Assembly: GCA_032622095.1 (NCBI GenBank)
Contig: CP136067.1
Span: 63,560,893 to 63,624,892 of the forward strand
Direction: 5' to 3'
Origin: Siphonodentalium dalli
Lineage: Eukaryota > Mollusca > Scaphopoda > Gadilida > Siphonodentaliidae
DNA length: 64,000 nt
How positions within the stretch are numbered: the first letter of the stretch is position 1; the number at the start of each line of letters is the position of its first letter. This document shows, one piece after another, positions 4,577-45,300 of the stretch. Under the pieces are notes generated by a model that was given only the letters and a program-made list of their open reading frames with translations, was not told the origin of the DNA and did no database searches. Both the position numbers and the translations under genes were made by a program.

Positions 4577-7200
4577 TCCAATTCATGTTATATTATCCAT
4601 GGTATTTCCAGTTCATGTTATATCATCCAACTCATGTTATATCATCCAACTCATGTTATATCACCCATGTCATGTCCAACTAATGTTATATCATCCAACA
4701 CATGTTATAGCATCCATGTCATGTCCAACTCATGTTATATCATCCAACTCATGTTATATCATCCATGTCATGTCCAACTCATGTTATATCATCCATGTCA
4801 TGTCCAACTCATGTTATATCATCCAACTCATGTTATATCATCCAACTCATGTTATATCATCCAACTCATGTTATATCATCCATGTCATGTCCAACTCATG
4901 TTATATCATCCAACTCATGTTATATCATCCAACTCATGTTATATCATCCAACTCATGTTATATCATCCATGTCATGTCCAACTCATGTTATATCATCCAA
5001 CTCATGTTATATCATCCAACTCATGTTATATCATCCAACTCATGTTATATCATCCATGTCATGTCCAACTCATGTTATATCATCCAACTCATGTTATATC
5101 ATCCATGTCATGTCCAACTCATGTTATATCATCCAACTCAAGTAATAGCATCCATGTCATGTCCAACTCATGTTATATCATCCAACTCATGTTATATCAC
5201 CCAACTCATGTTATAGCATCCATGTCATGTCCAACTCATGTTATATCATCCAACTCATGTTATATCATCCAACTCATGTTATAGCATCCATGTCATGTCC
5301 AACTCATGTTATATCATCCATGTCATGTCCAACTCATGTTATATCATCCAACTCAAGTAATAGCACCCATGTCATGTCCAACTCATGTTATATCATCCAA
5401 CTCATGTTATATCACCCAACTCATGTTATAGCATCCATGTCATGTCCAACTCATGTTATATCATCCAACTCATGTTATATCATCCAACTCATGTTATATC
5501 ACCCAACTCATGTTATAGCATCCATGTCATGTCCAACTCATGTTATATCATCCAACTCATGTTATATCATCCAACTCATGTTATAGCATCCATGTCATGT
5601 CCAACTCATGTTATATCATCCATGTCATGTCCAACTCATGTTATATCATCCAACTCAAGTAATAGCATCCATGTCATGTCCAACTCATGTTATATCATCC
5701 AACTCATGTTATATCACCCAACTCATGTTATATCATCCAACTCATGTTATATCATCCAACTCATGTTATAGCATCCATGTCATGTCCAACTCATGTTATA
5801 TCATCCATGTCATGTCCAACTCATGTTATATCATCCAACTCAAGTAATAGCATCCATGTCATGTCCAACTCATGTTATATCATCCAACTCATGTTATATC
5901 ACCCAACTCATGTTATAGCATCCATGTCATGTCCAACTCATGTTATATCATCCAACTCATGTTATATCATCCAACTCATGTTATAGCATCCATGTCATGT
6001 CCAACTCATGTTATATCATCCATGTCATGTCCAACTCATGATATACCATCCAACTCATGTTATAGCATCTATGTCATGTCCAACTCATGTTATATCATCC
6101 AACTCATGTTATATCATCCAATTCATGTTATATCATCCATGCCATGTCCAACTCATGTTATATCATCCAATTCATGTTATATCATCCATGCCATGTCCAA
6201 CTCATGATATATCATCCAACTCATGTTATAGCATCGATGTCATGTCAAACTCATGTTATATCATCCAACTCATGTTATATCATCCAACTCATGTTATATC
6301 ATCCAATTCATGTTATATCATACCTGCCATGTCCAACTCATGTTATATCATCCAACTAATGTTATATCATCCAACTAATGTTATATCATCCAACTCATGT
6401 TATATCATCCAACTTTAAATATGTTATATCATCCAATTCATGTTATATCACCCATGCCATGTCCAACTCATGTTATAGCATCCATGTCATGTCCAACTCA
6501 TGTTATATCATCCAACTCATGTTATATCATCCAACTCATGTTATATCATCCATGTCATGTCCAACTAATGTTATATCATCCATGTCATGTTATATCATCC
6601 AACTCATGTTATAGCATCCATGTCATGTCCAACTTATGTTATATCATCCAACTCATGTTTTAGCATCCATGTCATGTCCAACTCATGTTATATCATCCAA
6701 CTCATGTTATATCATCCAACTCATGTTATAGCATCCATGCCATGTCCAACTAATGTTATATCATTCAACTCATGTGTTATATCATCCAACTCATGTTATA
6801 TCATCCATGCCATGTCCAACTCATGCTATATCATTCAACTCATGTTATATCATCCATATCATGTCCAACTCATGTTATATCATCCATGTCATGTCCAACT
6901 CATATTATATCATCCAACTCATGTTATAGCATCCATGTCATGTCCAACTCATGTTATATCATCCAACTCATGTTATAGCATCCATGTCATGTCCAACTCA
7001 TGTTATATCATCCAACTCATGTTATATCATCCATGTCATGTCCAACTCATATTATATCATCCAACTCATGTTATAGCATCCATGTCATGTCCAACTCATG
7101 TTATATCATCCAACTCATGTTATAGCATCCATGTCATGTCCAACTCATGTTATATCATTCAACTCATGTGTTATATCATCCAACTCATGTTATATCATCC
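4577..7200. repeat. Array section 1: irregular mixture of unit variants
   Basis: Starts with degenerate units (CCAATTCATGTTATATTATC, CATGGTATTTCCAGTTC). From ~5130 to 5870 a rare CAACTCAAGTAATAGC variant recurs at about 5137, 5350, 5651 and 5839, marking local duplications of ~190-300 bp. Around 6413 there is an odd AACTTTAAATATGTTATATC junction unit that is found again near 30690. Confidence 0.85.
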
Positions 7201-10052
7201 ATGCCATGTCCAACTCATGTTATATCATCCAACTCATGTTATATCATCCATGCCATGTCCAACTCATGTTATATCATCCAACTCATGTTATATCATCCAT
7301 GCCATGTCCAACTCATGTTATATCATCCAACTCATGTTATATCATCCATGCCATGTCCAACTCATGTTATATCATCCAACTCATGTTATATCATCCATGC
7401 CATGTCCAACTCATGTTATATCATCCAACTCATGTTATATCATCCATGCCATGTCCAACTCATGTTATATCATCCAACTCATGTTATATCATCCATGCCA
7501 TGTCCAACTCATGTTATATCATCCAACTCATGTTATAGCATCCATGCCATGTCCAACTAATGTTATATCATTCAACTCATGTGTTATATCATCCAACTCA
7601 TGTTATATCATCCATGCCATGTCCAACTCATGCTATATCATTCAACTCATGTTATATCATCCATATCATGTCCAACTCATGTTAATATATCATCCATGTC
7701 ATGTCCAACTCATATTATATCATCCAACTCATGTTATAGCATCCATGTCATGTCCAACTCATGTTATATCATCCAACTCATGTTATAGTATCCATGTCAT
7801 GTCCAACTCATGTTATATCATCCAACTCATGTTATATCATCCATGTCATGTCCAACTCATACTATATCATCCAACTCATGTTATAGCATCCATGTCATGT
7901 CCAACTCATGTTATATCATCCAACTCATGTTATAGCATCCATGTCATGTCCAACTCATGTTATATCATCCAACTCATGTTATAGCATCCATGTCATGTCC
8001 AACTCATGTTATATAATCCAACTCATGTTATATTATCCAACTCGTGTTATAGCAGTCATGTCATGTTCAACTCATGTTATATCATTCAACTCATGTTTTA
8101 CCATCCAACTCATGTTATATCACCCATGTCATGTCCAACTAATGTTATATCATCCAACACATGTTATAGCATCCATGTCATGTCCAACTCATGTTATATC
8201 ATCCAACTCATGTTATATCATCCATGCCATGTCCAACTCATGTTATATCATCCAACTCATGTTATAGCATCCATGTCATGTCCAACTCAAGTTATATCAC
8301 CCAACTCATGTTATAGCATCCAATTCATGTTATATCATCCATGTCATGTCCAACTCATGTTATAGCATCCAATTCATGTTATATCATCCATGTCATGTCC
8401 AACTCATGTTATATCATCCAACTCATGTTATAGCATCCATGTCAGGTCCAACACATGTTATAGCATCCATGTCATGTCCAACTCATGATATACCATCCAA
8501 CTCATGTTATATCATCCATGTCATGTCCAACTCATGTTATAGCATCCATGTCATGTCCAACTCTTGTTATATCATCCAACTCATGTTATAGCATCCAATT
8601 CATGTTATATCATCCAACTCATGTTATATCATCCATGTCATGTCCAACTCATGTTATATCACCCAACTCATGTTATATCATCCAACTCATGTTATATCAT
8701 CCAACTCTTGTTATAGCATCCAATTCATGTTATATCATCCATGTCATGTCCAACTCGTGTTATATCATCCAACTCATGTTATAGCATCCATGTCATGTCC
8801 AACTCATGTTATATCACCCAACTCATGTTATATTACCCAACTCATGTTATATCATCCATGTCATGTCCAACTCATGTTATATCACCCAACTCATGTTATA
8901 TCACCCAAAGCATGTTATATCATCCATGTCATGTTATATCACCCAACTCATGTTATATCATCCATGTCATGTCCAACTCATGTTATATCAGCCATGTCAT
9001 GTCCAACTCATATTATATCATCCATGTCATGTCCAACTCATGTTATATCACCCAACTCATGTTATATCACCCAACTCATGTTATATCATCCATGTCATGT
9101 TATATCACCCAACTCATGTTATATCACCCAACTCATGTTATATCATCCATGTCATGTCCAACTCATGTTATATCACCCAACTCATGTTATATCACCCAAC
9201 TCATGTTATATCATCCATGTCATGTCCAACTCATGTTATATCATCCAACTCATGTTATATCACCCAACTCATGTTATATCACCCAACTCATGTTATATCA
9301 CCCAACTCATGTTATATCATCCATGTCATGTCCAACTCATGTTATATCATCCATGTCATGTCCAACTCATATTATATCATCCATGTCATGTCCAACTCAT
9401 GTTATATCACCCAACTCATGTTATATCACCCAACTCATGTTATATCATCCATGTCATGTTATATCACCCAACTCATGTTATATCACCCAACTCATGTTAT
9501 ATCATCCATGTCATGTCCAACTCATGTTATATCACCCAACTCATGTTATATCATCCATGTCATGTCCAACTCATGTTATATCATCCAACTCATGTTATAT
9601 CACCCAACTCATGTTATATCACCCAACTCATGTTATATCACCCAACTCATGTTATATCATCCATGTCATGTTATATCATCCATGTCATGTCCAACTCATG
9701 TTATATCATCCAACTCATGTTATATCACCCAACTCATGTTATATCATCCATGTCATGTCCAACTCATGTTATATCACCCAACTCATGTTATATCATCCAA
9801 CTCATGTTATATCATCCAACTCATGTTATATCACCCAACTCATGTTATATCATCCAATTCATGTTATATCATCCATGTCATGTCCAACTCATGTTATATC
9901 ATCCAACTCATGCTATAGCATCCATGTCATGTCCAACTCATGTTATATCACCCAACTCATGTTTAATATATCATCCAACTCATGCTATATCATCCAACTC
10001 ATGTTATAGCATCCAATTCATGTTATAGCATCCAACTCATGTTATATCATCC
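7201..10052. repeat. Higher-order repeat A, copy 1 (2852 bp)
   Basis: First of four tandem copies of a ~2849-bp block. It opens with eight ATGCCATGTCC-type 49-bp composites and ends with units at the GTTTAATATATC junction. Private changes here are a 3-bp insertion (CATGTTAATATATC near 7680), TATAGTATCC near 7787 and CATACTATATC near 7857. It has TATAGCAGTCATG near 8050, as in copy 4. Confidence 0.93.
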
Positions 10053-12901
10053 ATGCCATGTCCAACTCATGTTATATCATCCAACTCATGTTATATCATC
10101 CATGCCATGTCCAACTCATGTTATATCATCCAACTCATGTTATATCATCCATGCCATGTCCAACTCATGTTATATCATCCAACTCATGTTATATCATCCA
10201 TGCCATGTCCAACTCATGTTATATCATCCAACTCATGTTATATCATCCATGCCATGTCCAACTCATGTTATATCATCCAACTCATGTTATATCATCCATG
10301 CCATGTCCAACTCATGTTATATCATCCAACTCATGTTATATCATCCATGCCATGTCCAACTCATGTTATATCATCCAACTCATGTTATAGCATCCATGCC
10401 ATGTCCAACTAATGTTATATCATTCAACTCATGTGTTATATCATCCAACTCATGTTATATCATCCATGCCATGTCCAACTCATGCTATATCATTCAACTC
10501 ATGTTATATCATCCATATCATGTCCAACTCATGTTATATCATCCATGTCATGTCCAACTCATATTATATCATCCAACTCATGTTATAGCATCCATGTCAT
10601 GTCCAACTCATGTTATATCATCCAACTCATGTTATAGCATCCATGTCATGTCCAACTCATGTTATATCATCCAACTCATGTTATATCATCCATGTCATGT
10701 CCAACTCATATTATATCATCCAACTCATGTTATAGCATCCATGTCATGTCCAACTCATGTTATATCATCCAACTCATGTTATAGCATCCATGTCATGTCC
10801 AACTCATGTTATATCATCCAACTCATGTTATAGCATCCATGTCATGTCCAACTCATGTTATATAATCCAACTCATGTTATATTATCCAACTCGTGTTATA
10901 GAAGTCATGTCATGTTCAACTCATGTTATATCATTCAACTCATGTTTTACCATCCAACTCATGTTATATCACCCATGTCATGTCCAACTAATGTTATATC
11001 ATCCAACACATGTTATAGCATCCATGTCATGTCCAACTCATGTTATATCATCCAACTCATGTTATATCATCCATGCCATGTCCAACTCATGTTATATCAT
11101 CCAACTCATGTTATAGCATCCATGTCATGTCCAACTCAAGTTATATCACCCAACTCATGTTATAGCATCCAATTCATGTTATATCATCCATGTCATGTCC
11201 AACTCATGTTATAGCATCCAATTCATGTTATATCATCCATGTCATGTCCAACTCATGTTATATCATCCAACTCATGTTATAGCATCCATGTCAGGTCCAA
11301 CACATGTTATAGCATCCATGTCATGTCCAACTCATGATATACCATCCAACTCATGTTATATCATCCATGTCATGTCCAACTCATGTTATAGCATCCATGT
11401 CATGTCCAACTCTTGTTATATCATCCAACTCATGTTATAGCATCCAATTCATGTTATATCATCCAACTCATGTTATATCATCCATGTCATGTCCAACTCA
11501 TGTTATATCACCCAACTCATGTTATATCATCCAACTCATGTTATATCATCCAACTCTTGTTATAGCATCCAATTCATGTTATATCATCCATGTCATGTCC
11601 AACTCGTGTTATATCATCCAACTCATGTTATAGCATCCATGTCATGTCCAACTCATGTTATATCACCCAACTCATGTTATATTACCCAACTCATGTTATA
11701 TCATCCATGTCATGTCCAACTCATGTTATATCACCCAACTCATGTTATATCACCCAAAGCATGTTATATCATCCATGTCATGTTATATCACCCAACTCAT
11801 GTTATATCATCCATGTCATGTCCAACTCATGTTATATCAGCCATGTCATGTCCAACTCATATTATATCATCCATGTCATGTCCAACTCATGTTATATCAC
11901 CCAACTCATGTTATATCACCCAACTCATGTTATATCATCCATGTCATGTTATATCACCCAACTCATGTTATATCACCCAACTCATGTTATATCATCCATG
12001 TCATGTCCAACTCATGTTATATCACCCAACTCATGTTATATCACCCAACTCATGTTATATCATCCATGTCATGTCCAACTCATGTTATATCATCCAACTC
12101 ATGTTATATCACCCAACTCATGTTATATCACCCAACTCATGTTATATCACCCAACTCATGTTATATCATCCATGTCATGTCCAACTCATGTTATATCATC
12201 CATGTCATGTCCAACTCATATTATATCATCCATGTCATGTCCAACTCATGTTATATCACCCAACTCATGTTATATCACCCAACTCATGTTATATCATCCA
12301 TGTCATGTTATATCACCCAACTCATGTTATATCACCCAACTCATGTTATATCATCCATGTCATGTCCAACTCATGTTATATCACCCAACTCATGTTATAT
12401 CATCCATGTCATGTCCAACTCATGTTATATCATCCAACTCATGTTATATCACCCAACTCATGTTATATCACCCAACTCATGTTATATCACCCAACTCATG
12501 TTATATCATCCATGTCATGTTATATCATCCATGTCATGTCCAACTCATGTTATATCATCCAACTCATGTTATATCACCCAACTCATGTTATATCATCCAT
12601 GTCATGTCCAACTCATGTTATATCACCCAACTCATGTTATATCATCCAACTCATGTTATATCATCCAACTCATGTTATATCACCCAACTCATGTTATATC
12701 ATCCAATTCATGTTATATCATCCATGTCATGTCCAACTCATGTTATATCATCCAACTCATGCTATAGCATCCATGTCATGTCCAACTCATGTTATATCAC
12801 CCAACTCATGTTTAATATATCATCCAACTCATGCTATATCATCCAACTCATGTTATAGCATCCAATTCATGTTATAGCATCCAACTCATGTTATATCATC
12901 C
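10053..12901. repeat. Higher-order repeat A, copy 2 (2849 bp)
   Basis: Matches copy 1 at an offset of 2849-2852 bp with very few substitutions. It carries TATAGAAGTCATG near 10898, shared only with copy 3. Confidence 0.93.
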
Positions 12902-15731
12902 ATGCCATGTCCAACTCATGTTATATCATCCAACTCATGTTATATCATCCATGCCATGTCCAACTCATGTTATATCATCCAACTCATGTTATATCATCCA
13001 TGCCATGTCCAACTCATGTTATATCATCCAACTCATGTTATATCATCCATGCCATGTCCAACTCATGTTATATCATCCAACTCATGTTATATCATCCATG
13101 CCATGTCCAACTCATGTTATATCATCCAACTCATGTTATATCATCCATGCCATGTCCAACTCATGTTATATCATCCAACTCATGTTATATCATCCATGCC
13201 ATGTCCAACTCATGTTATATCATCCAACTCATGTTATAGCATCCATGCCATGTCCAACTAATGTTATATCATTCAACTCATGTGTTATATCATCCAACTC
13301 ATGTTATATCATCCATGCCATGTCCAACTCATGCTATATCATTCAACTCATGTTATATCATCCATATCATGTCCAACTCATGTTATATCATCCATGTCAT
13401 GTCCAACTCATATTATATCATCCAACTCATGTTATAGCATCCATGTCATGTCCAACTCATGTTATAGCATCCATGTCATGTCCAACTCATGTTATATCAT
13501 CCAACTCATGTTATATCATCCATGTCATGTCCAACTCATATTATATCATCCAACTCATGTTATAGCATCCATGTCATGTCCAACTCATGTTATATCATCC
13601 AACTCATGTTATAGCATCCATGTCATGTCCAACTCATGTTATATCATCCAACTCATGTTATAGCATCCATGTCATGTCCAACTCATGTTATATAATCCAA
13701 CTCATGTTATATTATCCAACTCGTGTTATAGAAGTCATGTCATGTTCAACTCATGTTATATCATTCAACTCATGTTTTACCATCCAACTCATGTTATATC
13801 ACCCATGTCATGTCCAACTAATGTTATATCATCCAACACATGTTATAGCATCCATGTCATGTCCAACTCATGTTATATCATCCAACTCATGTTATATCAT
13901 CCATGCCATGTCCAACTCATGTTATATCATCCAACTCATGTTATAGCATCCATGTCATGTCCAACTCAAGTTATATCACCCAACTCATGTTATAGCATCC
14001 AATTCATGTTATATCATCCATGTCATGTCCAACTCATGTTATAGCATCCAATTCATGTTATATCATCCATGTCATGTCCAACTCATGTTATATCATCCAA
14101 CTCATGTTATAGCATCCATGTCAGGTCCAACACATGTTATAGCATCCATGTCATGTCCAACTCATGATATACCATCCAACTCATGTTATATCATCCATGT
14201 CATGTCCAACTCATGTTATAGCATCCATGTCATGTCCAACTCTTGTTATATCATCCAACTCATGTTATAGCATCCAATTCATGTTATATCATCCAACTCA
14301 TGTTATATCATCCATGTCATGTCCAACTCATGTTATATCACCCAACTCATGTTATATCATCCAACTCATGTTATATCATCCAACTCTTGTTATAGCATCC
14401 AATTCATGTTATATCATCCATGTCATGTCCAACTCGTGTTATATCATCCAACTCATGTTATAGCATCCATGTCATGTCCAACTCATGTTATATCACCCAA
14501 CTCATGTTATATTACCCAACTCATGTTATATCATCCATGTCATGTCCAACTCATGTTATATCACCCAACTCATGTTATATCACCCAAAGCATGTTATATC
14601 ATCCATGTCATGTTATATCACCCAACTCATGTTATATCATCCATGTCATGTCCAACTCATGTTATATCAGCCATGTCATGTCCAACTCATATTATATCAT
14701 CCATGTCATGTCCAACTCATGTTATATCACCCAACTCATGTTATATCACCCAACTCATGTTATATCATCCATGTCATGTTATATCACCCAACTCATGTTA
14801 TATCACCCAACTCATGTTATATCATCCATGTCATGTCCAACTCATGTTATATCACCCAACTCATGTTATATCACCCAACTCATGTTATATCATCCATGTC
14901 ATGTCCAACTCATGTTATATCATCCAACTCATGTTATATCACCCAACTCATGTTATATCACCCAACTCATGTTATATCACCCAACTCATGTTATATCATC
15001 CATGTCATGTCCAACTCATGTTATATCATCCATGTCATGTCCAACTCATATTATATCATCCATGTCATGTCCAACTCATGTTATATCACCCAACTCATGT
15101 TATATCACCCAACTCATGTTATATCATCCATGTCATGTTATATCACCCAACTCATGTTATATCACCCAACTCATGTTATATCATCCATGTCATGTCCAAC
15201 TCATGTTATATCACCCAACTCATGTTATATCATCCATGTCATGTCCAACTCATGTTATATCATCCAACTCATGTTATATCACCCAACTCATGTTATATCA
15301 CCCAACTCATGTTATATCACCCAACTCATGTTATATCATCCATGTCATGTTATATCATCCATGTCATGTCCAACTCATGTTATATCATCCAACTCATGTT
15401 ATATCACCCAACTCATGTTATATCATCCATGTCATGTCCAACTCATGTTATATCACCCAACTCATGTTATATCATCCAACTCATGTTATATCATCCAACT
15501 CATGTTATATCACCCAACTCATGTTATATCATCCAATTCATGTTATATCATCCATGTCATGTCCAACTCATGTTATATCATCCAACTCATGCTATAGCAT
15601 CCATGTCATGTCCAACTCATGTTATATCACCCAACTCATGTTTAATATATCATCCAACTCATGCTATATCATCCAACTCATGTTATAGCATCCAATTCAT
15701 GTTATAGCATCCAACTCATGTTATATCATCC
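12902..15731. repeat. Higher-order repeat A, copy 3 (2830 bp)
   Basis: Same block as copy 2 but 19 bp shorter, that is, missing exactly one basic unit near 13440-13490 (two consecutive TATAGCATCC 30-mers where copy 2 has an extra 19-mer). Shares TATAGAAGTCATG with copy 2. Confidence 0.93.
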
Positions 15732-18580
15732 ATGCCATGTCCAACTCATGTTATATCATCCAACTCATGTTATATCATCCATGCCATGTCCAACTCATGT
15801 TATATCATCCAACTCATGTTATATCATCCATGCCATGTCCAACTCATGTTATATCATCCAACTCATGTTATATCATCCATGCCATGTCCAACTCATGTTA
15901 TATCATCCAACTCATGTTATATCATCCATGCCATGTCCAACTCATGTTATATCATCCAACTCATGTTATATCATCCATGCCATGTCCAACTCATGTTATA
16001 TCATCCAACTCATGTTATATCATCCATGCCATGTCCAACTCATGTTATATCATCCAACTCATGTTATAGCATCCATGCCATGTCCAACTAATGTTATATC
16101 ATTCAACTCATGTGTTATATCATCCAACTCATGTTATATCATCCATGCCATGTCCAACTCATGCTATATCATTCAACTCATGTTATATCATCCATATCAT
16201 GTCCAACTCATGTTATATCATCCATGTCATGTCCAACTCATATTATATCATCCAACTCATGTTATAGCATCCATGTCATGTCCAACTCATGTTATATCAT
16301 CCAACTCATGTTATAGCATCCATGTCATGTCCAACTCATGTTATATCATCCAACTCATGTTATATCATCCATGTCATGTCCAACTCATATTATATCATCC
16401 AACTCATGTTATAGCATCCATGTCATGTCCAACTCATGTTATATCATCCAACTCATGTTATAGCATCCATGTCATGTCCAACTCATGTTATATCATCCAA
16501 CTCATGTTATAGCATCCATGTCATGTCCAACTCATGTTATATAATCCAACTCATGTTATATTATCCAACTCGTGTTATAGCAGTCATGTCATGTTCAACT
16601 CATGTTATATCATTCAACTCATGTTTTACCATCCAACTCATGTTATATCACCCATGTCATGTCCAACTAATGTTATATCATCCAACACATGTTATATCAT
16701 CCATGTCATGTCCAACTCATGTTATATCATCCAACTCATGTTATATCATCCATGCCATGTCCAACTCATGTTATATCATCCAACTCATGTTATAGCATCC
16801 ATGTCATGTCCAACTCAAGTTATATCACCCAACTCATGTTATAGCATCCAATTCATGTTATATCATCCATGTCATGTCCAACTCATGTTATAGCATCCAA
16901 TTCATGTTATATCATCCATGTCATGTCCAACTCATGTTATATCATCCAACTCATGTTATAGCATCCATGTCAGGTCCAACACATGTTATAGCATCCATGT
17001 CATGTCCAACTCATGATATACCATCCAACTCATGTTATATCATCCATGTCATGTCCAACTCATGTTATAGCATCCATGTCATGTCCAACTCTTGTTATAT
17101 CATCCAACTCATGTTATAGCATCCAATTCATGTTATATCATCCAACTCATGTTATATCATTCATGTCATGTCCAACTCATGTTATATCACCCAACTCATG
17201 TTATATCATCCAACTCATGTTATATCATCCAACTCTTGTTATAGCATCCATTTCATGTTATATCATCCATGTCATGTCCAACTCGTGTTATATCATCCAA
17301 CTCATGTTATAGCATCCATGTCATGTCCAACTCATGTTATATCACCCAACTCATGTTATATTACCCAACTCATGTTATATCATCCATGTCATGTCCAACT
17401 CATGTTATATCACCCAACTCATGTTATATCACCCAAAGCATGTTATATCATCCATGTCATGTTATATCACCCAACTCATGTTATATCATCCATGTCATGT
17501 CCAACTCATGTTATATCAGCCATGTCATGTCCAACTCATATTATATCATCCATGTCATGTCCAACTCATGTTATATCACCCAACTCATGTTATATCACCC
17601 AACTCATGTTATATCATCCATGTCATGTTATATCACCCAACTCATGTTATATCACCCAACTCATGTTATATCATCCATGTCATGTCCAACTCATGTTATA
17701 TCACCCAACTCATGTTATATCACCCAACTCATGTTATATCATCCATGTCATGTCCAACTCATGTTATATCATCCAACTCATGTTATATCACCCAACTCAT
17801 GTTATATCACCCAACTCATGTTATATCACCCAACTCATGTTATATCATCCATGTCATGTCCAACTCATGTTATATCATCCATGTCATGTCCAACTCATAT
17901 TATATCATCCATGTCATGTCCAACTCATGTTATATCACCCAACTCATGTTATTTCACCCAACTCATGTTATATCATCCATGTCATGTTATATCACCCAAC
18001 TCATGTTATATCACCCAACTCATGTTATATCATCCATGTCATGTCCAACTCATGTTATATCACCCAACTCATGTTATATCATCCATGTCATGTCCAACTC
18101 ATGTTATATCATCCAACTCATGTTATATCACCCAACTCATGTTATATCACCCAACTCATGTTATATCACCCAACTCATGTTATATCATCCATGTCATGTT
18201 ATATCATCCATGTCATGTCCAACTCATGTTATATCATCCAACTCATGTTATATCACCCAACTCATGTTATATCATCCATGTCATGTCCAACTCATGTTAT
18301 ATCACCCAACTCATGTTATATCATCCAACTCATGTTATATCATCCAACTCATGTTATATCACCCAACTCATGTTATATCATCCAATTCATGTTATATCAT
18401 CCATGTCATGTCCAACTCATGTTATATCATCCAACTCATGCTATAGCATCCATGTCATGTCCAACCTATGTTATATCACCCAACTCATGTTTAATATATC
18501 ATCCAACTCATGCTATATCATCCAACTCATGTTATAGCATCCAATTCATGTTATAGCATCCAACTCATGTTATATCATCC
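15732..18580. repeat. Higher-order repeat A, copy 4 (2849 bp)
   Basis: Same block with a few private substitutions: ATCATTCATG near 17157, ATTTCACCC near 17952, CCAACCTATG near 18464. Has TATAGCAGTCATG like copy 1. Identity to the block ends at 18580, where copy 3 would continue into ATGCCATGTCC but this one continues with AACTCATG. Confidence 0.93.
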
Positions 18581-18860
18581 AACTCATGTTATATCACCCA
18601 ACTCATGTTATATCATCCATGTCATGTCCAACTCATGTTATACCACCCAACTCATGTTATATCATCCAACTCATGTTATATCATCCAACTCATGTTATAT
18701 CATCCATGTCATGTTATATCACCCAAATCATGATATACCATCAAACTCATGTTATAGCATCCATGTCATGTCCGACTCATGTTATATCATCCAACTCATG
18801 TTATGTCATCCAACTCATGTTATATCATCCAATTCATGTTATATCATCCATGCCATGTCC
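18581..18860. repeat. Array section between repeats A and B
   Basis: About 280 bp of mixed units with rare variants CACCCAAATCATGATATACC and GTCCGACTCATG. The same combination recurs near 25195 and 28845, showing a shared origin with the 3650-bp blocks. Confidence 0.8.
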
Positions 18861-22820: not shown

Positions 22821-23149
22821 TATATCATCCAACTCTTGTTATATCATCCAACTCATGTTATATCATCCAACTCATGTTATATCATCCAACTCATGTTATA
22901 TCATCCAACTCATGTTATATCATCCAACTCATGTTATATCATCCAACTCATGTTATATCATCCAACTCATGTTATATCATCCAACTCATGTTATAGCATC
23001 CATGTCATGTCCAACTCATGTTATATCACCCAACTCTTGTTATATCATCCAACTCATGTTATATCATCCAACTCATGTTATATCATCCAACTCATGTTAT
23101 ATCATCCAACTCTTGTTATATCATCCAACTCTTGTTATATCATCCAACT
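22821..23149. repeat. Array run of nearly pure 19-mers
   Basis: Mostly consecutive 19-bp units with occasional AACTCTTG units and very few 11-bp extensions. This is the most homogeneous 19-mer stretch and looks recently amplified by slippage or short unequal exchange. Confidence 0.8.
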
Positions 23150-26100
23150 CATGTTATATCATCCAACTCATGTTATATCATCCAACTCATGTTATATCAT
23201 CCAACTCATGTTATATCATCCAACTCATGTTATATCATCCAACTCTTGTTATATCACCCAACTCATGTTATATCATCCAACTCATGTTATATCATCCAAC
23301 TCATGTTATAGCATCCATGTCATGTCCAACTCATGTTATATCACCCAACTCTTGTTATATCATCCAACTCATGTTATAGCATCCAATTCATGTTATATCA
23401 TCCAACTCATGTTATATCATCCATGTCATGTCCAACTCATGTTATATCACCCAACTCATGTTATATCATCCAACTCATGTTATATCATCCAACTCATGTT
23501 ATAGCATCCAATTCATGTTATATCATCCATGTCATGTCCAACTCGTGTTATATCATCCAACTCATGTTATAGCATCCATGTCATGTCCAACTCATGTTAT
23601 ATCACCCAACTCATGTTATATTACCCAACTCATGTTATATCATCCATGTCATGTCCAACTCATGTTATATCACCCAACTCATGTTATATCACCCAAAGCA
23701 TGTTATATCATCCATGTCATGTTATATCACCCAACTCATGTTATATCATCCATGTCATGTCCAACTCATGTTATATCAGCCATGTCATGTCCAACTCATA
23801 TTATATCATCCATGTCATGTCCAACTCATGTTATATCACCCAACTCATGTTATATCACCCAACTCATGTTATATCATCCATGTCATGTTATATCACCCAA
23901 CTCATGTTATAAAAACCCAACTCATGTTATATCATCCATGTCATGTCCAACTCATGTTATATCACCCAACTCATGTTATATCACCCAACTCATGTTATAT
24001 CATCCATGTCATGTCCAACTCATGTTATATCATCCAACTCATGTTATATCACCCAACTCATGTTATATCACCCAACTCATGTTATATCACCCAACTCATG
24101 TTATATCATCCATGTCATGTCCAACTCATGTTATATCATCCATGTCATGTCCAACTCATATTATATCATCCATGTCATGTCCAACTCATGTTATATCACC
24201 CAACTCATGTTATATCACCCAACTCATGTTATATCATCCATGTCATGTTATATCACCCAACTCATGTTATATCACCCAACTCATGTTATATCATCCATGT
24301 CATGTCCAACTCATGTTATATCACCCAACTCATGTTATATCATCCATGTCATGTCCAACTCATGTTATATCATCCAACTCATGTTATATCACCCAACTCA
24401 TGTTATATCACCCAACTCATGTTATATCACCCAACTCATGTTATATCATCCATGTCATGTTATATCATCCATGTCATGTCCAACTCATGTTATATCATCC
24501 AACTCATGTTATATCACCCAACTCATGTTATATCACCCAACTCATGTTATATCATCCAACTCATGTTATATCATCTATGTCATGTCCAACTCATGTTATA
24601 TCATCCATGTCATGTTATATCATCCAACTCATGTTATATCACCCATCTCATGTTATAGCATCCATGTCATGTCCAACTCATTTTATATCACCCAACTCAT
24701 GTTATATCACCCAACTCATGTTATATCACCCAACTCATGTTATATCATCCATGTCATGTCCAACTCATGTTATATCACCCAACTCATGTTATATCATCCA
24801 ACTCATGTTATATCATCCAACTCATGTTATATCACCCAACTCATGTTATATCATCCAATTCATGTTATATCATCCATGTCATGTCCAACTCATGTTATAT
24901 CATCCAACTCATGCTATAGCATCCATGTCATGTCCAACTCATGTTATATCACCCAACTCATGTTTAATATATCATCCAACTCATGCTATATCATCCAACT
25001 CATGTTATAGCATCCAATTCATGTTATAGCATCCAACTCATGTTATATCATCCAACTCATGTTATATCACCCAACTCATGTTATATCATCCATGTCATGT
25101 CCAACTCATGTTATACCACCCAACTCATGTTATATCATCCAACTCATGTTATATCATCCAACTCATGTTATATCATCCATGTCATGTTATATCACCCAAA
25201 TCATGATATACCATCAAACTCATGTTATAGCATCCATGTCATGTCCGACTCATGTTATATCATCCAACTCATGTTATGTCATCCAACTCATGTTATATCA
25301 TCCAATTCATGTTATATCATCCATGCCATGTCCAACTCATGTTATAGCATCCATGTCATGTCCACCTCATGATATATCATTCAACTCATGTTATATCATC
25401 CAACTCATGTTATATCATCCATGCCATGTCCAACTCATGGTATATCATCCAACTCATGTTATAGCATCCAACTCATGTTATATCATCCATGTCATGTCCA
25501 ATTCATGTTATATCATCCATGCCATGTCCAACTCATGTTATATCATCCACCTCATGTTATAGCATCCATGTCATGTCCACCTCATGATATATCATTCAAC
25601 TCATGTTATATCATCCAACTCATGTTATATCATCCATGCCATGTCCAACTCATGTTATATAATCCAACTCATGATATAGCATCCAACTCATGTTATATCA
25701 TCCAACTCATGTTATATCATCCAACTCATGTTATATCATCCAACTCATGTTATAGCATCCATGTCATGTCCAACTCATGTTATATAATCCAACTCATGTT
25801 ATATCATCTAATCATGTTATAGCATCCATGCCATGTCCAATTCATGTTATATCATCCAACTCATGTTATATCATCCAACTCATGGTATAGCATCCATGCC
25901 ATGTCCAACTAATGTTATATCATTCAACTCGTGGGTTATATCATCCATGTCATGTCCAAATCATGCTATATCATTCAACTCATGTTTTATCATCCAACTC
26001 ATGTTATAGCATCCATGTCATGTCCAACTCATGTTATATCATCCATGTCATGTCCAACTCATATTATATCATCCAACTCGTGTTATAGCATCCAACTCGT

Positions 26101-26799
26101 GTTATAGCATCCAACTCGTGTTATAGCATCCATGTCATGTCCAACTCATGTTATATCATCCATGTCATGTCCAACTCATGTTATATCATCCATGTCATGT
26201 CCAACTCATGTTATATCATCCAACTCGTGTTATAGCATCCATGTCATGTCCAACTCATGTTATATCATCCAACTCATGTTATATCATCCAATTCATGTTA
26301 TATCATCCATGCCATGTCCAACTCATGTTATATCATCCAATTCATGTTATATCATCCATGCCATGTCGAACTCATGTTATATCATCCAACTCATGTTATA
26401 TCATCCAACTCATGATATACCATCCAACTCATGTTATAGCATCCATGTCATGTCCAACTCATGTTATATCATCCAACTCATGTTATATCACCCAATTCAT
26501 GTTATATCATCCATGCCATGTCCAACTCATGTTATATCATCCAATTCATGTTATATCATCCATGCCATGTCCAACTCATGATATATCATCCAACTCATGT
26601 TATAGCATCGATGTCATGTCGAACTCATGTTATATCATCCAACTCATGTTATATCATCCAACTCATGTTATATCATCCAACTCATGTTTTAGCATCCATG
26701 CCATGTCCAACTCATGTTATATCATCCAACTCATGTTTTAGCATCCATGTCATGTCCAACTCATGTTATATCACCCAACTCATGTTATATCATCCAACT
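23150..26799. repeat. Higher-order repeat C, copy 1 (~3650 bp)
   Basis: A ~3650-bp block matched again directly downstream. It contains a segment related to repeat A (from ~23430) but with a diagnostic GTTATAAAAACCCAACTC replacement near 23909, also present in copy 2 near 27559. A triple AACTCGTGTTATAGC run lies near 26070-26130. Confidence 0.9.
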
Positions 26800-29700
26800 A
26801 TTGTTATATCATCCAACTCATGTTATATCATCCAACTCATGTTATATCATCCAACTCATGTTATATCATCCAACTCATGTTATATCATCCAACTCTTGTT
26901 ATATCACCCAACTCATGTTATATCATCCAACTCATGTTATATCATCCAACTCATGTTATAGCATCCATGTCATGTCCAACTCATGTTATATCACCCAACT
27001 CTTGTTATATCATCCAACTCATGTTATAGCATCCAATTCATGTTATATCATCCAACTCATGTTATATCATCCATGTCATGTCCAACTCATGTTATATCAC
27101 CCAACTCATGTTATATCATCCAACTCATGTTATATCATCCAACTCATGTTATAGCATCCAATTCATGTTATATCATCCATGTCATGTCCAACTCGTGTTA
27201 TATCATCCAACTCATGTTATAGCATCCATGTCATGTCCAACTCATGTTATATCACCCAACTCATGTTATATTACCCAACTCATGTTATATCATCCATGTC
27301 ATGTCCAACTCATGTTATATCACCCAACTCATGTTATATCACCCAAAGCATGTTATATCATCCATGTCATGTTATATCACCCAACTCATGTTATATCATC
27401 CATGTCATGTCCAACTCATGTTATATCAGCCATGTCATGTCCAACTCATATTATATCATCCATGTCATGTCCAACTCATGTTATATCACCCAACTCATGT
27501 TATATCACCCAACTCATGTTATATCATCCATGTCATGTTATATCACCCAACTCATGTTATAAAAACCCAACTCATGTTATATCATCCATGTCATGTCCAA
27601 CTCATGGTATATCACCCAACTCATGTTATATCACCCAACTCATGTTATATCATCCATGTCATGTCCAACTCATGTTATATCATCCAACTCATGTTATATC
27701 ACCCAACTCATGTTATATCACCCAACTCATGTTATATCACCCAACTCATGTTATATCATCCATGTCATGTCCAACTCATGTTATATCATCCATGTCATGT
27801 CCAACTCATATTATATCATCCATGTCATGTCCAACTCATGTTATATCACCCAACTCATGTTATATCACCCAACTCATGTTATATCATCCATGTCATGTTA
27901 TATCACCCAACTCATGTTATATCACCCAACTCATGTTATATCATCCATGTCATGTCCAACTCATGTTATATCACCCAACTCATGTTATATCATCCATGTC
28001 ATGTCCAACTCATGTTATATCATCCAACTCATGTTATATCACCCAACTCATGTTATATCACCCAACTCATGTTATATCACCCAACTCATGTTATATCATC
28101 CATGTCATGTTATATCATCCATGTCATGTCCAACTCATGTTATATCATCCAACTCATGTTATATCACCCAACTCATGTTATATCACCCAACTCATGTTAT
28201 ATCATCCAACTCATGTTATATCATCTATGTCATGTCCAACTCATGTTATATCATCCATGTCATGTTATATCATCCAACTCATGTTATATCACCCATCTCA
28301 TGTTATAGCATCCATGTCATGTCCAACTCATGTTATATCACCCAACTCATGTTATATCACCCAACTCATGTTATATCACCCAACTCATGTTATATCATCC
28401 ATGTCATGTCCAACTCATGTTATATCACCCAACTCATGTTATATCATCCAACTCATGTTATATCATCCAACTCATGTTATATCACCCAACTCATGTTATA
28501 TCATCCAATTCATGTTATATCATCCATGTCATGTCCAACTCATGTTATATCATCCAACTCATGCTATAGCATCCATGTCATGTCCAACTCATGTTATATC
28601 ACCCAACTCATGTTCAATATATCATCCAACTCATGCTATATCATCCAACTCATGTTATAGCATCCAATTCATGTTATAGCATCCAACTCATGTTATATCA
28701 TCCAACTCATGTTATATCACCCAACTCATGTTATATCATCCATGTCATGTCCAACTCATGTTATACCACCCAACTCATGTTATATCATCCAACTCATGTT
28801 ATATCATCCAACTCATGTTATATCATCCATGTCATGTTATATCACCCAAATCATGATATACCATCAAACTCATGTTATAGCATCCATGTCATGTCCGACT
28901 CATGTTATATCATCCAACTCATGTTATGTCATCCAACTCATGTTATATCATCCAATTCATGTTATATCATCCATGCCATGTCCAACTCATGTTATATCAT
29001 CCACCTCATGTTATAGCATCCATGTCATGTCCACCTCATGATATATCATTCAACTCATGTTATATCATCCAACTCATGTTATATCATCCATGTCATGTCC
29101 AATTCATGTTATATCATCCATGCCATGTCCAACTCATGTTATATCATCCACCTCATGTTATAGCATCCATGTCATGTCCACCTCATGATATATCATTCAA
29201 CTCATGTTATATCATCCAACTCATGTTATATCATCCATGCCATGTCCAACTCATGTTATATAATCCAACTCATGATATAGCATCCAACTCATGTTATATC
29301 ATCCAACTCATGTTATATCATCCAACTCATGTTATATCATCCAACTCATGTTATAGCATCCATGTCATGTCCAACTCATGTTATATAATCCAACTCATGT
29401 TATATCATCTAATCATGTTATATCATCCATGCCATGTCCAATTCATGTTATATCATCCAACTCATGTTATATCATCCAACTCATGGTATAGCATCCATTC
29501 CATGTCCAACTAATGTTATATCATTCAACTTGTGGGTTATATCATCCATGTCATGTCCAAATCATGCTATATCATTCAACTCATGTTTTATCATCCAACT
29601 CATGTTATAGCATCCATGTCATGTCCAACTCATGTTATATCATCCATGTCATGTCCAACTCATATTATATCATCCAACTCGTGTTATAGCATCCAACTCG

Positions 29701-30440
29701 TGTTATAGCATCCAACTCGTGTTATAGCATCCATGTCATGTCCAACTCGTGTTATAGCATCCATGTCATGTCCAACTCATGTTATATCATCCATGTCATG
29801 TCCAACTCATGTTATATCATCCATGTCATGTCCAACTCATGTTATATCATCCAACTCGTGTTATAGCATCCATGTCATGTCCAACTCATGTTATATCATC
29901 CAACTCATGTTATATCATCCAATTCATGTTATATCATCCATGCCATGTCCAACTCATGTTATATCATCCAATTCATGTTATATCATCCATGCCATGTCGA
30001 ACTCATGTTATATCATCCAACTCATGTTATATCATCCAACTCATGATATACCATCCAACTCATGTTATAGCATCCATGTCATGTCCAACTCATGTTATAT
30101 CATCCAACTCATGTTATATCACCCAATTCATGTTATATCATCCATGCCATGTCCAACTCATGTTATATCATCCAATTCATGTTATATCATCCATGCCATG
30201 TCCAACTCATGATATATCATCCAACTCATGTTATAGCATCGATGTCATGTCGAACTCATGTTATATCATCCAACTCATGTTATATCATCCAACTCATGTT
30301 ATATCATCCAACTCATGTTTTAGCATCCATGCCATGTCCAATTCATGTTATATCATCCAACTCATGTTTTAGCATCCATGTCATGTCCAACTCATGTTAT
30401 ATCACCCAACTCATGTTATATCATCCAACTATTGTTATAT
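26800..30440. repeat. Higher-order repeat C, copy 2 (~3640 bp)
   Basis: Head-to-tail copy of the previous block, at offset 3650 in the first part and 3631 at the end, so net change is again one 19-bp unit after several small unit gains and losses around 29000-29760. Ends near 30440, where AACTATTG is followed by a different unit order. Confidence 0.88.
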
Positions 30441-33400
30441 CATCCAACTCATGTTATAGCATCGATGTCATGTCGAACTCATGTTATATCATCCAACTCA
30501 TGTTATATCATCCAACTCATGTTATATCATCCAACTCATGTTTTAGCATCCATGCCATGTCCAACTCATGTTATATCATCCAATTCATGTTATAGCATCC
30601 ATGTCATGTCCAACTCATGTTATATCATCCAACTAATGTTATATCATCCAACTATTGTTATATCATCCAACTCATGTTATATCATCCAACTTTAAATATG
30701 TTATATCATCCAATTCATGTTATATCACCCATGCCATGTCCAACTCATGTTATAGCATCCATGTCATGTCCAACTCATGTTATATCATCCAACTCATGTT
30801 ATATCATCCAACTCATGTTATATCATCCATGGCATGTCCAACTAATGTTATATCATCCATGTCATGTTATATCATCCAACTCATGTTATAGCATCCATGT
30901 CATGTCCAACTCATGTTATATCATCCAACTCATGTTATATCATTCAACTCATGTTATATCATCCATGTCATGTCCAACTCATGTTATATCATCCAACTCA
31001 TGTTATATCATCCATGTCATGTCCAACTCATGTTATATAATCCAACTCATGTTATAGCATCCAACTCATGTTATAGCAGTCATGTCATGTTCAACTCATG
31101 TTATATCATTCAACTCATGTTATATCTTCCAACTCGTGTGTTATATCACCCATACCATGTCCAACTCATGCTATATCATTCAACTCATGTTATATCATCC
31201 AACTCATGTTATATCATCCATGCCATGTCCAACTCATGTTATATCATCCAACTCATGTTATAGCATCCATGTCATGTCCAACTCATGTTATATCATCCAA
31301 CTCATGTTATATCATCCATGTCATGTCCAACTCATGTTATATCACCCAACTCTTGTTATATCATCCAACTCATGTTATAGCATCCAATTCATGTTATATC
31401 ATCCAACTCATGTTATATCATCCATGTCATGTCCAACTCATGTTATATCATCCAACTCATGTTATAGCATCCATGTCATGTCCAACTCATGTTATATAAT
31501 CCATAAGCATCCATAAGCCATGTCCAACTAATGTTATATCATTCAACTCGTGGGTTATATCATCCATGTCATGTCCAACTCATGCTATATCATTCAACTC
31601 ATGTTTTATCATCCAACTCATGTTAGAGCATCCATGTCATGTCCAACTCATGTTATATCATCCAACTCATGTTATATCATCCATGTCATGTCCAACTCAT
31701 GTTATATCATCCAACTCATGTTATATCATCCAACTCATGTTATATCATCCATGTCATGTCCAACTCATGTTATATCATCCACCTCATGTAATAGCATCCA
31801 TGTCATGTCCAACTCATGTTATATCATCCACCTCATGTAATAGCACCCATGTCATGTCCAACTCATGTTATATCATCCAACTCATGTTATATCATCCATG
31901 TCATGTCCAACTCATGTTATATCATCCACCTCATGTAATAGCACCCATGTCATGTCCAACTCATGTTATATCATCCAACTCATGTTATATCATCCATGTC
32001 ATGTCCAACTCATGTTATATCATCCAACTCATGTTATATAATCCAACTCATGATATATCATCCAACTCATGTTATATCATCCAACTCATGTTATAGCATC
32101 CATGCCATGTCCAACTCATGTTATATCATCCAACTCATGTTATATAATCCAACTCATGTTATATCATCCAACTCATGTTATATCATCCAACTCATGTTAT
32201 ATCATCCAACTCATGTTTTAGCATCCATGCCATGTCCAACTCATGTTATATCATCCAACTCATGTTTTAGCATCCATGTCATGTCCAACTCATGTTATAT
32301 CATCCACCTCATGTTATAGCATCCATGTCATGTCCAACTCATGTTATATCATCCAACTCATGTTATAGCATCCATGTCATGTCCAACTCATGTTATATCA
32401 TCCATGTCATGTCCAACTCATATTATATCATCCAACTCATGTTATATCATCCAACTCATGTTATATCTTCCATGTCATGTCCAACTCATATTATATCATC
32501 CATGTCATGTCCAACTCATATTATATCATCCAACTCATGTTATAGCATCCAACTCATGCTATATCATCCATGTCATGTCCAACTCATGTTATATCATCCA
32601 ACTCATGTTATATCATCCAACTCATGTTATATCATCCACCTCATGTTATAGCATCCATGTCATGTCCAACTCATGTTATATCATCCAACTCATGTTATAT
32701 CACCCAACTCATGTTATATCTTTCATGTCATGTCCAACTCATGTTATATCATCCAACTCATGTTATATAATCCAACTCATGATATAGCATCCAACTCATG
32801 TTATATCATCCAACTCATGTTATATCATCCAACTCATGTTATATCATCCAACTCATGTTATAGCATCCATGTCATGTCCAACTCATGTTATATCATCCAA
32901 CTCATGTTATATCATCCAACTCATGTTATATCATCCAACTCATGTTATATCACCCAACTAATGTTATAGCTTTCATGTCATGTCCAACTCATGTTATATC
33001 ATCCAACTCATGTTATATAATCCAACTCATGTTATAGCGTCCATCTCATGTTATAGCAGTCATGTCATGTCCAACTCATGTTATATCATTCAACTCATGT
33101 TATACCATCCAACTCATGTGTTATATCATCCATGCCATGTCCAACTCATGCTATATCATTCAACTCATGTTATATCATCCAACTCATGTTATATCATCCA
33201 TGTCATGTCCAACTCATGTTATATCATCCAACTCATGTTATAGCACCCATGCCATGTCCAACTCATGTTATATCATCCAACTCATGTTATATCATCCATG
33301 TCATGTCCAACTCATGTTATATCATCCAACTCATATTATAGCATCCATGTCATGTTATATCATCCAACTCATGTTATAGCATCCATGTCATGTCCAACTC

Positions 33401-34321
33401 ATGTTATATCATCCAACTCATGTTATATCATCCATGCCATGTCCAACTCATGTTATATCATCCATGTCATGTCCAACTCATATTATAGCATCCATGGCAT
33501 GTCCAACTCATGTTATATCATCCAACTCATGTTATATCATCCAACTCATGTTATATCATCCATGTCATGTCCAACTCATGTTATATCATCCAACTCATGT
33601 TATATAATCCAACTCATGATATATCATCCAACTCATGTTATATCATCCAACTCATGTTATAGCAACCATGCCATGTCCAACTCATGTTATATCATCCAAC
33701 TCATGTTATATCTTCCAACTCATGTTATAGCATCCAACTCATGTTATATCATCCAACTCATGTTATATCATCCAACTCATGTTTTAGCATCCATGCCATG
33801 TCCAACTCATGTTATATCATCCAACTCATGTTATATCATCCAACTCATGTTATATCATCCATGTCATGTCCAACTCATGTTATATCATCCAACTCATGTT
33901 ATATAATCCAACTCATGATATATCATCCAACTCATGTTATATCATCCAACTCATGTTATAGCAACCATGCCATGTCCAACTCATGTTATATCATCCAACT
34001 CATGTTATATCTTCCAACTCATGTTATAGCATCCAACTCATGTTATATCATCCAACTCATGTTATATCATCCAACTCATGTTATAGCATCCATGCCATGT
34101 CCAACTCATGTTATATCATCCACCTCATGTTATAGCATCCATGCCATGTCCAACTCATGTTATATCATCCAACTCATGTTATATCATCCAACTCATGTTT
34201 TAGCATCCATGCCATGTCCAACTCATGTTATATCATCCACCTCATGTTTTAGCATCCATGTCATGTCCAACTTATGTTATAGCATCCATGTCATGTCCAA
34301 CTCATGTTATATCATCCAACT
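30441..34321. repeat. Array section with irregular order and a ~301-bp duplication
   Basis: Mixed units, no long block. The AACTTTAAATATG junction unit and its surroundings (30610-30890) repeat the segment near 6340-6610. A block containing TATAGCAACCATGCC and TATATCTTCC appears near 33607 and again 301 bp later. Several units have the CCACCTCATG variant (31780-31935). Confidence 0.82.
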
Positions 34322-35735
34322 CATGTTTTAGCATCCATGTCATGTCCAACTCATGTTATATCATCCAACTCATGTTATATCATCCATGTCATGTCCAACT
34401 CATGTTATATCATCCAACTCATGTCATAGCATTCATGCCATGTCCAACTCATGTTATATCATTAAACTCATGTTATATCATCCATGTCATGTCCAACTCA
34501 TGTTATATCATCCATGTCATGTCCAACTCATGTTATATCTTCCAACTCATGTTATATCATCCATGTCATGTCCAACTCATGTTATATCATCCAACTCATG
34601 TTATATCATCCATGCCATGTCCAACTCATGTTATATCATCCATGTCATGTCCACCTCATGTTATATCATCCATGTCATGTCCACCTCATGTTATAGCATC
34701 CATGTCATGTCCAACTCATGTTATATCATCCAACTCATGTTATATCATCCAACTCATGTTATATCATCCAACTCATGTTATATCATCCAACTCATGTTAG
34801 ATCATCCAACTCATGTTATATCATCCATGTCATGTCCAACTCATGTTATATCATCCAACTCATGTTTTAGCATCCATGTCATGTCCAACTCATGTTATAT
34901 CATCCAACTCATGTTATATCATCCATGTCATGTCCAACTCATGTTATATCATCCAACTCATGTCATAGCATTCATGCCATGTCCAACTCATGTTATATCA
35001 ATCAACTCATGTTATATCATCCATGTCATGTCCAACTCATGTTATATCATCCATGTCATGTCCAACTCATGTTATATCTTCCAACTCATGTTATATCATC
35101 CATGTCATGTCCAACTCATGTTATATCATCCAACTCATGTTATATCATCCATGCCATGTCCAACTCATGTTATATCATCCATGTCATGTCTACCTCATGT
35201 TATATCATCCATGTCATGTCCACCTCATGTTATAGCATCCATGTCATGTCCAACTCATGTTATATCATCCAACTCATGTTATATCATCCAACTCATGTTA
35301 TATCATCCAACTCATGTTATATCATCCAACTCATGTTAGATCATCCAACTCATGTTATATCATCCATGTCATGTCCAACTCATGTTATATCATCCAACTC
35401 ATGTTTTAGCATCCATGTCATGTCCAACTCATGTTATATCATCCAACTCATGTTATATCATCCATGTCATGTCCAACTCATGTTATATCATCCAACTCAT
35501 GTCATAGCATTCATGCCATGTCCAACTCATGTTATATCATTCAACTCATGTTATATCATCCATGTCATGTCCAACTCATGTTATATCATCCATGTCATGT
35601 CCAACTCATGTTATATCTTCCAACTCATGTTATATCATCCATGTCATGTCCAACTCATGTTATATCATCCAACTCATGTTATAGCATCCATGCCATGTCC
35701 AACTCATGTTATATCATCCATGTCATGTCCAACTC
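34322..35735. repeat. Higher-order repeat D, 539 bp, 2.6 copies
   Basis: The word CATGTTTTAGC recurs at 34322, 34861 and 35400, exactly 539 bp apart, and CATGTCATAGCATTC follows at 34423, 34962 and 35501. The third copy is broken near 35740. A related partial piece, again with CATGTCATAGCATTC, starts near 36482. Confidence 0.9.
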
Positions 35736-37231
35736 ATGTTATATTATCGTGTTATAGCAGTCATGTCATGTTCAACTCATGTTATATCATTCAACTCATG
35801 TTTTACCATCCAACTCATGTTATATCACCCATGTCATGTCCAACTCATGTTATATCATCCACCTCATGTTATAGTATCCATGTCATGTCCAACTCATGTT
35901 ATATCATCCAACTCATGTTATATCATCCATGTCATGTCCAACTCATGTTATATCATCCAACTCATGTTATAGCATCCATGTCATGTCCAACTCATGTTAT
36001 ATCATCCAACTCATGTTATATCATCCATGTCATGTCCAACTCATGTTATATCATCCAACTCATGTTATAGCATCCATGTCATGTCCAACTCATGTTATAT
36101 CATCCAACTCATGTTATATCATCCATGTCATGTTATATCATCCATGTCATGTCCAACTCATGTTATATCATCCAACTCATGTTATATCATCCATGTCATG
36201 TCCAACTCATGTTATATCATCCAACTCATGTTATATCATCCATGTCATGTTATATCATCCAACTCATGTTATATCATCCATGTCATGTTATATCATCCAT
36301 GTCATGTCCAACTCATGTTATATCATCCAACTCATGTTATATCATCCATGTCATGTCCAACTCATGTTATATCATCCAACTCATGTTATATCATCCATGT
36401 CATGTCCAACTCATGTTATATCATCCAACTCATGTTATATCATCCATGTCATGTCCAACTCATGTTATATCATCCAACTCATGTCATAGCATTCATGCCA
36501 TGTCCAACTCATGTTATATCATTCAACTCATGTTATATCATCCATGTCATGTCCAACTCATGTTATATCATCCATGTCATGTCCAACTCATGTTATATCT
36601 TCCAACTCATGTTATATCATCCATGTCATGTCCAACTCATGTTATATCATCCAACTCATGTTATAGCATCCATGCCATGTCCAACTCATGTTATATCATC
36701 CATGTCATGTCCAACTCATGTTATATCATCCATGTCATGTCCAACTCATGTTATATCATTCAACTCATGTTATATCATCCAACTCATGTTATAGCATCCA
36801 TGTCATGACCAACTCATGTTATATCATTCAACTCATGTTATATAATCCAACTCATGTTATAGCATCCATGTCATGTCCAATTCATGTTATATCATCCAAC
36901 TCATGTTATAGCATCCAACTCATGTGTTATATCATCCATGTCATGTCCAACTCATGTTGTATCATCCAACTCATGTGTTATATCATCCATGCCATGTCCA
37001 ACTCATGCTATATCATTCAACTCATGCTATATCATCCAACTCATGTTATATCATCCATGCCATGTCCAACTCATGTTATAGCATCCAATTTATGTGTTAT
37101 ATCATCTATGCCATGTCCAACTCATGCTATATCATCCAAATCATGTGTTATATCATCCATGCCATGTCAAACTCATGCTATATCATTCAACTCATGTTAT
37201 ATCATCCAACTCGTGTTTCATCCAACTCATC
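35736..37231. repeat. Array section, right end
   Basis: Mainly 49-bp composites of one 19-mer and one 30-mer, then increasingly degenerate units (AAATCATGTGTTATATC, AATTTATGTG, AACTCGTGTTTC). The last recognisable unit ends near 37231. Confidence 0.9.
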
Positions 37232-37711: not shown

Positions 37712-37876
37712 GTCAACCCATCACATCATGGAGTCACTGGAGTGATTGCTCTGTTTCCTGTGATATTGGTACAATGGAGAGACGGCGCGAAGAGACAGAG
37801 TACATGACGGATGAGATACGTCATTTGTATCCACTCATAATGAAGGCGGAGTGTGTGAAATTTCCATGTGAAAATA
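37712..37876 (+). CDS. Exon: thrombospondin type-1 (TSP1) domain
   Basis: A 165-bp exon, phase 1 at both ends, between a TTTTTACAG acceptor and the donor GTATGT. The encoded 55 residues begin QPITSWSHWSDCSVSC, the hallmark W-x-x-W-x-x-C-S-x-x-C start of a TSP1 repeat, then a G-T-M-E-R-R-R stretch in place of the usual G-x-x-x-R-x-R, and end with C-V-K-F-P-C. Only four of the usual six cysteines are visible, so one disulphide may be lost or lie elsewhere. TSP1 modules are extracellular and often bind matrix or glycosaminoglycans. Exon symmetry (1-1) is usual for shuffled modules. The next coding exon in phase is 41997-42224. Its upstream partner lies left of the satellite, possibly 710-835 or outside the window. 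The open frame extends upstream into the intron by chance. Confidence 0.85.
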
Positions 37877-45293: not shown

Positions 45294-45300
45294 GTAAGTG

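Follow-up and report, generated by a model that had tools for sequence, protein, structure and literature searches.

The window analysed here is a 64,000-bp stretch of the Siphonodentalium dalli genome (contig CP136067.1, hereafter C7; C7:63560893-63624892, window position x being C7:63560892 + x). It contains a long tandem array written in two unit lengths, a 19-mer (AACTCATGTTATATCATCC) and a 30-mer that consists of the same 19 bases followed by an 11-bp tail (AACTCATGTTATATCATCC + ATGTCATGTCC). Exon-like stretches lie on both sides of this 19/30 array, and a second array of different wording is found upstream of the window, at negative positions. The features are as follows:

4580..37223, + strand: mosaic minisatellite array of 1,424 head-to-tail units of 19 bp or 30 bp (tokenisation, Tandem Repeats Finder (TRF), exact-word counts)
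-22300 to -12048 (C7:63538592-63548844; L002-L003): second array, 20-bp unit TGAGGACAGTGATGGTGATA, 513 copies, 91% matches (TRF)
-23582 to -23460, + strand: putative upstream cysteine-rich exon (splice sites; no Pfam match)
-22920 to -22777, + strand: putative upstream Kazal-like exon (E 0.014, below cutoff; splice sites)
37712..37876, + strand: putative TSP1-domain exon, phase-1 acceptor and donor (PF00090, PDB match, splice sites)
41997..42224, + strand: putative Kazal-like exon, phase 1 at acceptor and donor (splice sites; Kazal_2 at E 0.023, under the curated cutoff)
45082..45293, + strand: putative cysteine-rich exon, phase-1 acceptor and phase-0 donor (splice sites)

The 19/30 array was tokenised with a two-unit dynamic programme over positions 4577-37240. 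The parse yielded 1,425 tokens, namely the 1,424 units preceded on the left by a 3-bp fragment; 903 tokens were exactly 19 bp and 487 exactly 30 bp long, 35 had other lengths, and 557 were letter-perfect canonical units. With 31,332 matched bases, 1,259 mismatches, 73 insertions and 18 deletions, the identity to the two consensus units is 95.9%, on a single strand. A first-pass annotation, made from the letters of this DNA, had read 4577-37231 as a string of 19-mers and 30-mers with no foreign insertion and with a dominant 49-bp period in many parts. The tokenisation bears this out, and the full units end within 10 bp of the borders given there. Eight tokens carried at least six edits, and since even the worst of them (31503-31525, 12 edits) retains recognisable unit pieces, the array holds no foreign insertion. 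The exact 19-mer occurs 613 times on the plus strand and never on the minus strand. Between successive exact 19-mers the commonest spacings are 19 (174 cases), 49 (110) and 30 (109), and TRF reported periods of 19, 30, 49 and 68 over the array span; as a spacing of 49 bp is among the commonest, the composite period is real. The composition is skewed, with a GC skew of about -0.5 in the inner windows of the array, and CpG is nearly missing (41 in 32.6 kb, observed/expected 0.055). Wear appears confined to the outermost few units.

Two readings of the array as a gene were rejected. Open frames of up to 549 aa are present, but they encode nothing except repeats, the reading frame is shifted by units of 19 bp, and a TATAGC variant introduces the stop codon TAG. 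As to an RNA gene, the sole Rfam match at gathering thresholds was a 5S rRNA in another part of the window, and no tRNA was found (bacterial settings).

To place the array in the genome, the 2.23-Gb assembly of nine contigs was searched outside assembly gaps and stretches reading N. The array lies at 63.57 Mb of the 211.8-Mb C7. The exact 19-mer dimer has 174 occurrences in the genome, all 174 of them in the window; for the 30-mer, allowing up to three mismatches, genome and window both gave 503. A reversed-pattern control of the 30-mer at the same tolerance gave no match in 2.23 Gb, which rules out chance as an explanation. For the single 19-mer at a tolerance of two mismatches, the genome gave 1,388 forward and 39 reverse matches, of which 1,337 forward and no reverse ones fall in the window. 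By subtraction 90 matches (51 forward, 39 reverse) lie outside; the reversed control gave 413 (214 + 199). Of the six outside matches that were fetched among 12 listed, five belong to a single unrelated dispersed element; the remaining one is without similarity to the array edges beyond its 19 bases. Judged by the assembled sequence, in which the dimers and 30-mers all lie inside the window, the array does not represent an abundant satellite family but is a mosaic minisatellite, private to a single locus of this assembly: its head-to-tail units fall within the roughly 6-100 bp of minisatellites, and one 32.6-kb array does not amount to the abundance of a satellite family. The first-pass annotation had called it a satellite and hinted at novelty. 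Of the first claim the tandem array stands and the abundant or dispersed family does not; as to the second, the monomer letters, in four wordings, gave no text match among 5.39 million PubMed Central (PMC) papers, but the kind of object is well known. The unrelated dispersed element that contains the 19-mer look-alike lies on C1 and C2 (L019-L023); its five fetched copies are about 92-98% alike and carry a 116-bp inverted repeat (about 75%) within the fetched 319 bp.

It had further been claimed that the order of short and long units acts like a barcode, and this held when put to numbers. The longest repeated word in the short/long code runs to 222 units (overlap allowed), whereas in 200 shuffles it averaged 22 and never exceeded 34. 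The array thereby shows what defines a variant-repeat code, two or more interspersed unit types in a code-like order. The 222-unit word is so long because of large block duplication. In a self-comparison, 74% of the array was covered by segments of at least 500 bp that have a near-identical partner, and the following blocks were delimited:

7686..18581, + strand: higher-order block in three copies, cut at 2,849, 2,830 and 2,849 bp, followed by an incomplete fourth of 2,368 bp (self-comparison, block alignment)
18858..22816, + strand: block duplicated at offset 2,053 bp, 1,906 bp at 99.95% (self-comparison)
23152..30458, + strand: block duplicated at offsets of 3,601-3,650 bp, three pieces, 99.6-99.9% (self-comparison)
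34283..35683, + strand: block duplication at a 539-bp offset (99.5%); another match, partial, at offset 1,078 (self-comparison)

As cut, copies 1 and 2 of the 2.83-kb block differ by 3 substitutions in 2830 bp, copies 1 and 3 by 3 in 2830 and copies 2 and 3 by 0 in 2811, while the fourth copy differs from the others by 7-8 substitutions per 2,349-2,368 bp. Gap columns among copies 1-3 number 19, 38 and 57, all multiples of the 19-bp unit. Near-identical copies with length differences in multiples of 19 bp are what unequal exchange or block duplication predicts. To compare the lineages of the two unit types, the large block copies were removed, which kept 777 of the 1,425 tokens, and the 754 without indels were counted. 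At base 14, where T and G alone were compared (10 short units carry C and were excluded), G is present in 115 of 264 long and in 27 of 480 short units. At base 17, where T and C alone were compared (8 long units carry G or A and were excluded), C is present in 9 of 256 long and in 88 of 490 short units. As the units do not represent independent draws, Fisher values computed for these contrasts do not have the meaning of probabilities. The 19-mer and 30-mer types are partly distinct lineages.

The putative TSP1 exon starts 489 bp past the right edge of the array. It matches PF00090 with E 7.9e-7 and 29.6 bits (cutoff 21.6) over positions 2-23 of 49, TSP1_spondin over its full length with 29.9 bits, under the cutoff of 41 for that model, and thrombospondin-1 in PDB with E 1.8e-5. 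The two exon-like stretches that follow, at 41997-42224 and 45082-45293, match nothing but themselves in the genome at E 0.1. The latter resembles a cystine knot by eye only; it gave no Pfam match, and in PDB only weak matches to ribosomal L43 (best E 0.25). Over the five exon-like stretches on the two sides of the array the phases are compatible, with acceptor phase 1 in five of five and donor phase 1 in four of five. A strict splice and cysteine filter for phase-1 exons found none between -22777 and 37712, the arrays themselves excluded. Taken from the sequence, the array probably sits in a 60.5-kb (60,488-bp) intron of a plus-strand TSP1/Kazal-like gene, apparently a gene for a secreted protein. 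Just downstream of the gene exons lies a full-length 5S rRNA match (46730-46848, + strand, 105.5 bits, Rfam). Open frames at 45027-45581 (+) and 50694-51017 (-) share the peptide ELYGYMSYFASHGRKGLTFLVASGRSLSC and probably belong to a dispersed repeat beside the gene exon.

The second array occupies 10.3 kb of the same apparent intron, about 16.6 kb upstream of the 19/30 array. It is likewise private, with 417 near-dimers in the genome and 417 at the locus, and blocks of up to 1.4 kb are duplicated within it. The two arrays have no 11-mer in common on either strand, so that homology between them was rejected. Combined, they make up 42,897 of the 60,488 bp, or 71% of the apparent intron. For comparison, TRF was run on a small sample of ten 10-kb stretches at round coordinates over all nine contigs, two of them on C7; 8.8% of this sequence was marked, and the longest row measured 1.8 kb, or about 2.0 kb after merging overlaps.

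The flanks were also searched for signs of a mobile-element origin of the 19/30 array, and this reading was rejected. On the right, the flank 37200-38000 matches only itself in the genome. On the left, a query of 3800-4640 was used, for which 39 of 239 candidates were scored, the window's own place not among them; the 39 listed matches cover the first 361 bases only and end about 420 bp before the array. Uniqueness in the genome is thus shown for the right flank only. These matches define a dispersed family in the left flank (3800-4160) with at least 39 matches among the 239 candidates, at 77-88% identity and on all nine contigs. Other tandem repeats were seen in the neighbourhood. Repeats of about 155-164 bp with the common wording GAACGAGTCATTTTGG...GTCATTCGG lie on both sides of the array (-463 to 656 and 54880-55173), a 131-bp tandem repeat with the wording TGACCTTGACCTTGAAATC lies at 48785-49291, and downstream of the window an array of about 0.9 kb with a 49-bp period (73169-74054, L005) is unrelated in wording.

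We consider it likely that the 19/30 array is a locus-private two-unit minisatellite that grew inside the probable 60.5-kb intron by slippage and unequal exchange and was tolerated there. The repeated 30-mer contains TCCA twice at a distance of 11 bp (positions 17 and 28), and the second copy extends into the next unit. Owing to this distance, a slippage loss of the 11-bp tail would leave exactly the 19-mer, and replication slippage on single units would thus be permitted a clean 30-to-19 loss. Longer stretches, of 0.5-3.7 kb, would be copied with their whole barcode by unequal exchange or block duplication. An expansion driven by hairpins was rejected: four array pieces (two places, both strands), folded as single-stranded DNA, were ordinary (z -0.39 to 0.33 against shuffles), so hairpins are not needed. 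Two pieces of the second array were less structured than their shuffles (z 2.2 and 2.6). The array would most likely be a tolerated, functionless passenger of its intron, transcribed and spliced out with it. It is a candidate variable number tandem repeat (VNTR), to which the block copies differing by multiples of 19 bp lend indirect support.

Several points weigh against growth as a tolerated passenger of one intron. Simple unequal-exchange models expect older array edges, and no age gradient from centre to edge was seen in bins of 75 units, the first bin having the lowest divergence (2.8%). The growth history is read from a single assembly. With regard to the host gene, the Kazal-like matches are below the Pfam cutoff, and a relaxed splice and cysteine filter gave weak candidate exons near -7185, -6242 and -4456. 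Since the exon search between the arrays relied on a simple filter and such candidates are present, we infer, rather than observe, that the flanking exons are consecutive and enclose one intron. Finally, one count in favour of this reading carries less weight than it seems: AATAAA or ATTAAA occurs once on the sense strand of the 32.6-kb array compared with 67 times in the 26.8-kb right flank; this near-lack follows from the single consensus unit and is not independent evidence.

A further point of this kind is that a 2,846-bp stretch recurs at an offset of 2,830 with zero differences, which would fit either a very recent duplication or an error in the assembly. The array could be real with the 2.83-kb block or another block over- or under-counted. 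We judge such a partial assembly product to be unlikely. There are 3 to 8 substitutions between the other block copies, copies 1-3 are set apart by their gap columns, the window sequence is without any N, and 17.8 kb of array is left after the large block copies are removed.

Function rather than tolerance would be the alternative for the intron as a whole. The 42.9 kb of private repeats might provide the pre-mRNA with a platform for delay, retention or protein binding, as in the proposal for Drosophila Y genes. Two unrelated long arrays in one apparent intron, set against a longest TRF row of 1.8 kb in the sample, speak in favour of this, as do the single strand throughout and a sense strand nearly without poly(A) signals. 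However, the arrays have no common 11-mer, the single-strand fold is not unusual, and the block copies are recent and irregular; we therefore hold a functional role to be quite improbable. Two unrelated private minisatellites that had grown independently to 32.6 and 10.3 kb would point to a local property favouring growth. That the intron itself is expansion-prone or selected, for instance through replication timing, a fragile site or regulation by long-repeat RNA, is in our estimate improbable. An abundant satellite family with centromeric or subtelomeric arrays elsewhere, which the array size and head-to-tail order might suggest, is very nearly discounted by the confinement of every exact dimer and 30-mer (up to three mismatches) to the window and by the lack of any related sequence among the six outside 19-mer matches fetched of about 90.

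The closest known analogue of the 19/30 array appears to be TRACT, a 30-bp VNTR intronic to human CACNA1C that spans 3-30+ kb, whose short and long alleles are enriched for distinct unit variants and whose growth through perfect repeat tracts was inferred by its authors (PMC13131567). As described there, TRACT resembles the 19/30 array in being a single-locus minisatellite, probably intronic in the case of the array, with a 30-bp unit and many variants, which in TRACT distinguish alleles. It differs in having one unit length instead of alternating 19 and 30 bp and in its host gene. Minisatellites with interspersed unit types are read by variant-repeat mapping (PMC2363947, PMC2897807), and mosaic tandem repeats have dedicated software (PMC10118999). 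Going by their descriptions, the loci so mapped share with the 19/30 array related unit types whose order forms a code; in the array the main types differ in length, and block duplications reach several kb. The Drosophila genes kl-3 and kl-5 have satellite-filled introns of megabase scale (PMC6508621). As in that account, tandem repeats here fill most of an apparent intron of a putative protein-coding gene; unlike there, they are 42.9 kb of locus-private minisatellite in 60.5 kb of apparent intron, well short of the megabase scale.

The 19/30 array is a very large case of a familiar kind of repeat, and the double expansion is notable. Large mosaic intronic minisatellites are hard to assemble, and in print the closest single-locus case that we found is human. 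What the S. dalli locus offers is a readable history of nested block duplications, written in a two-length code at one locus, next to an independent array in the same apparent intron. The locus lends itself to two questions as a natural experiment: are some introns prone to tandem growth, and does that growth affect splicing or expression?
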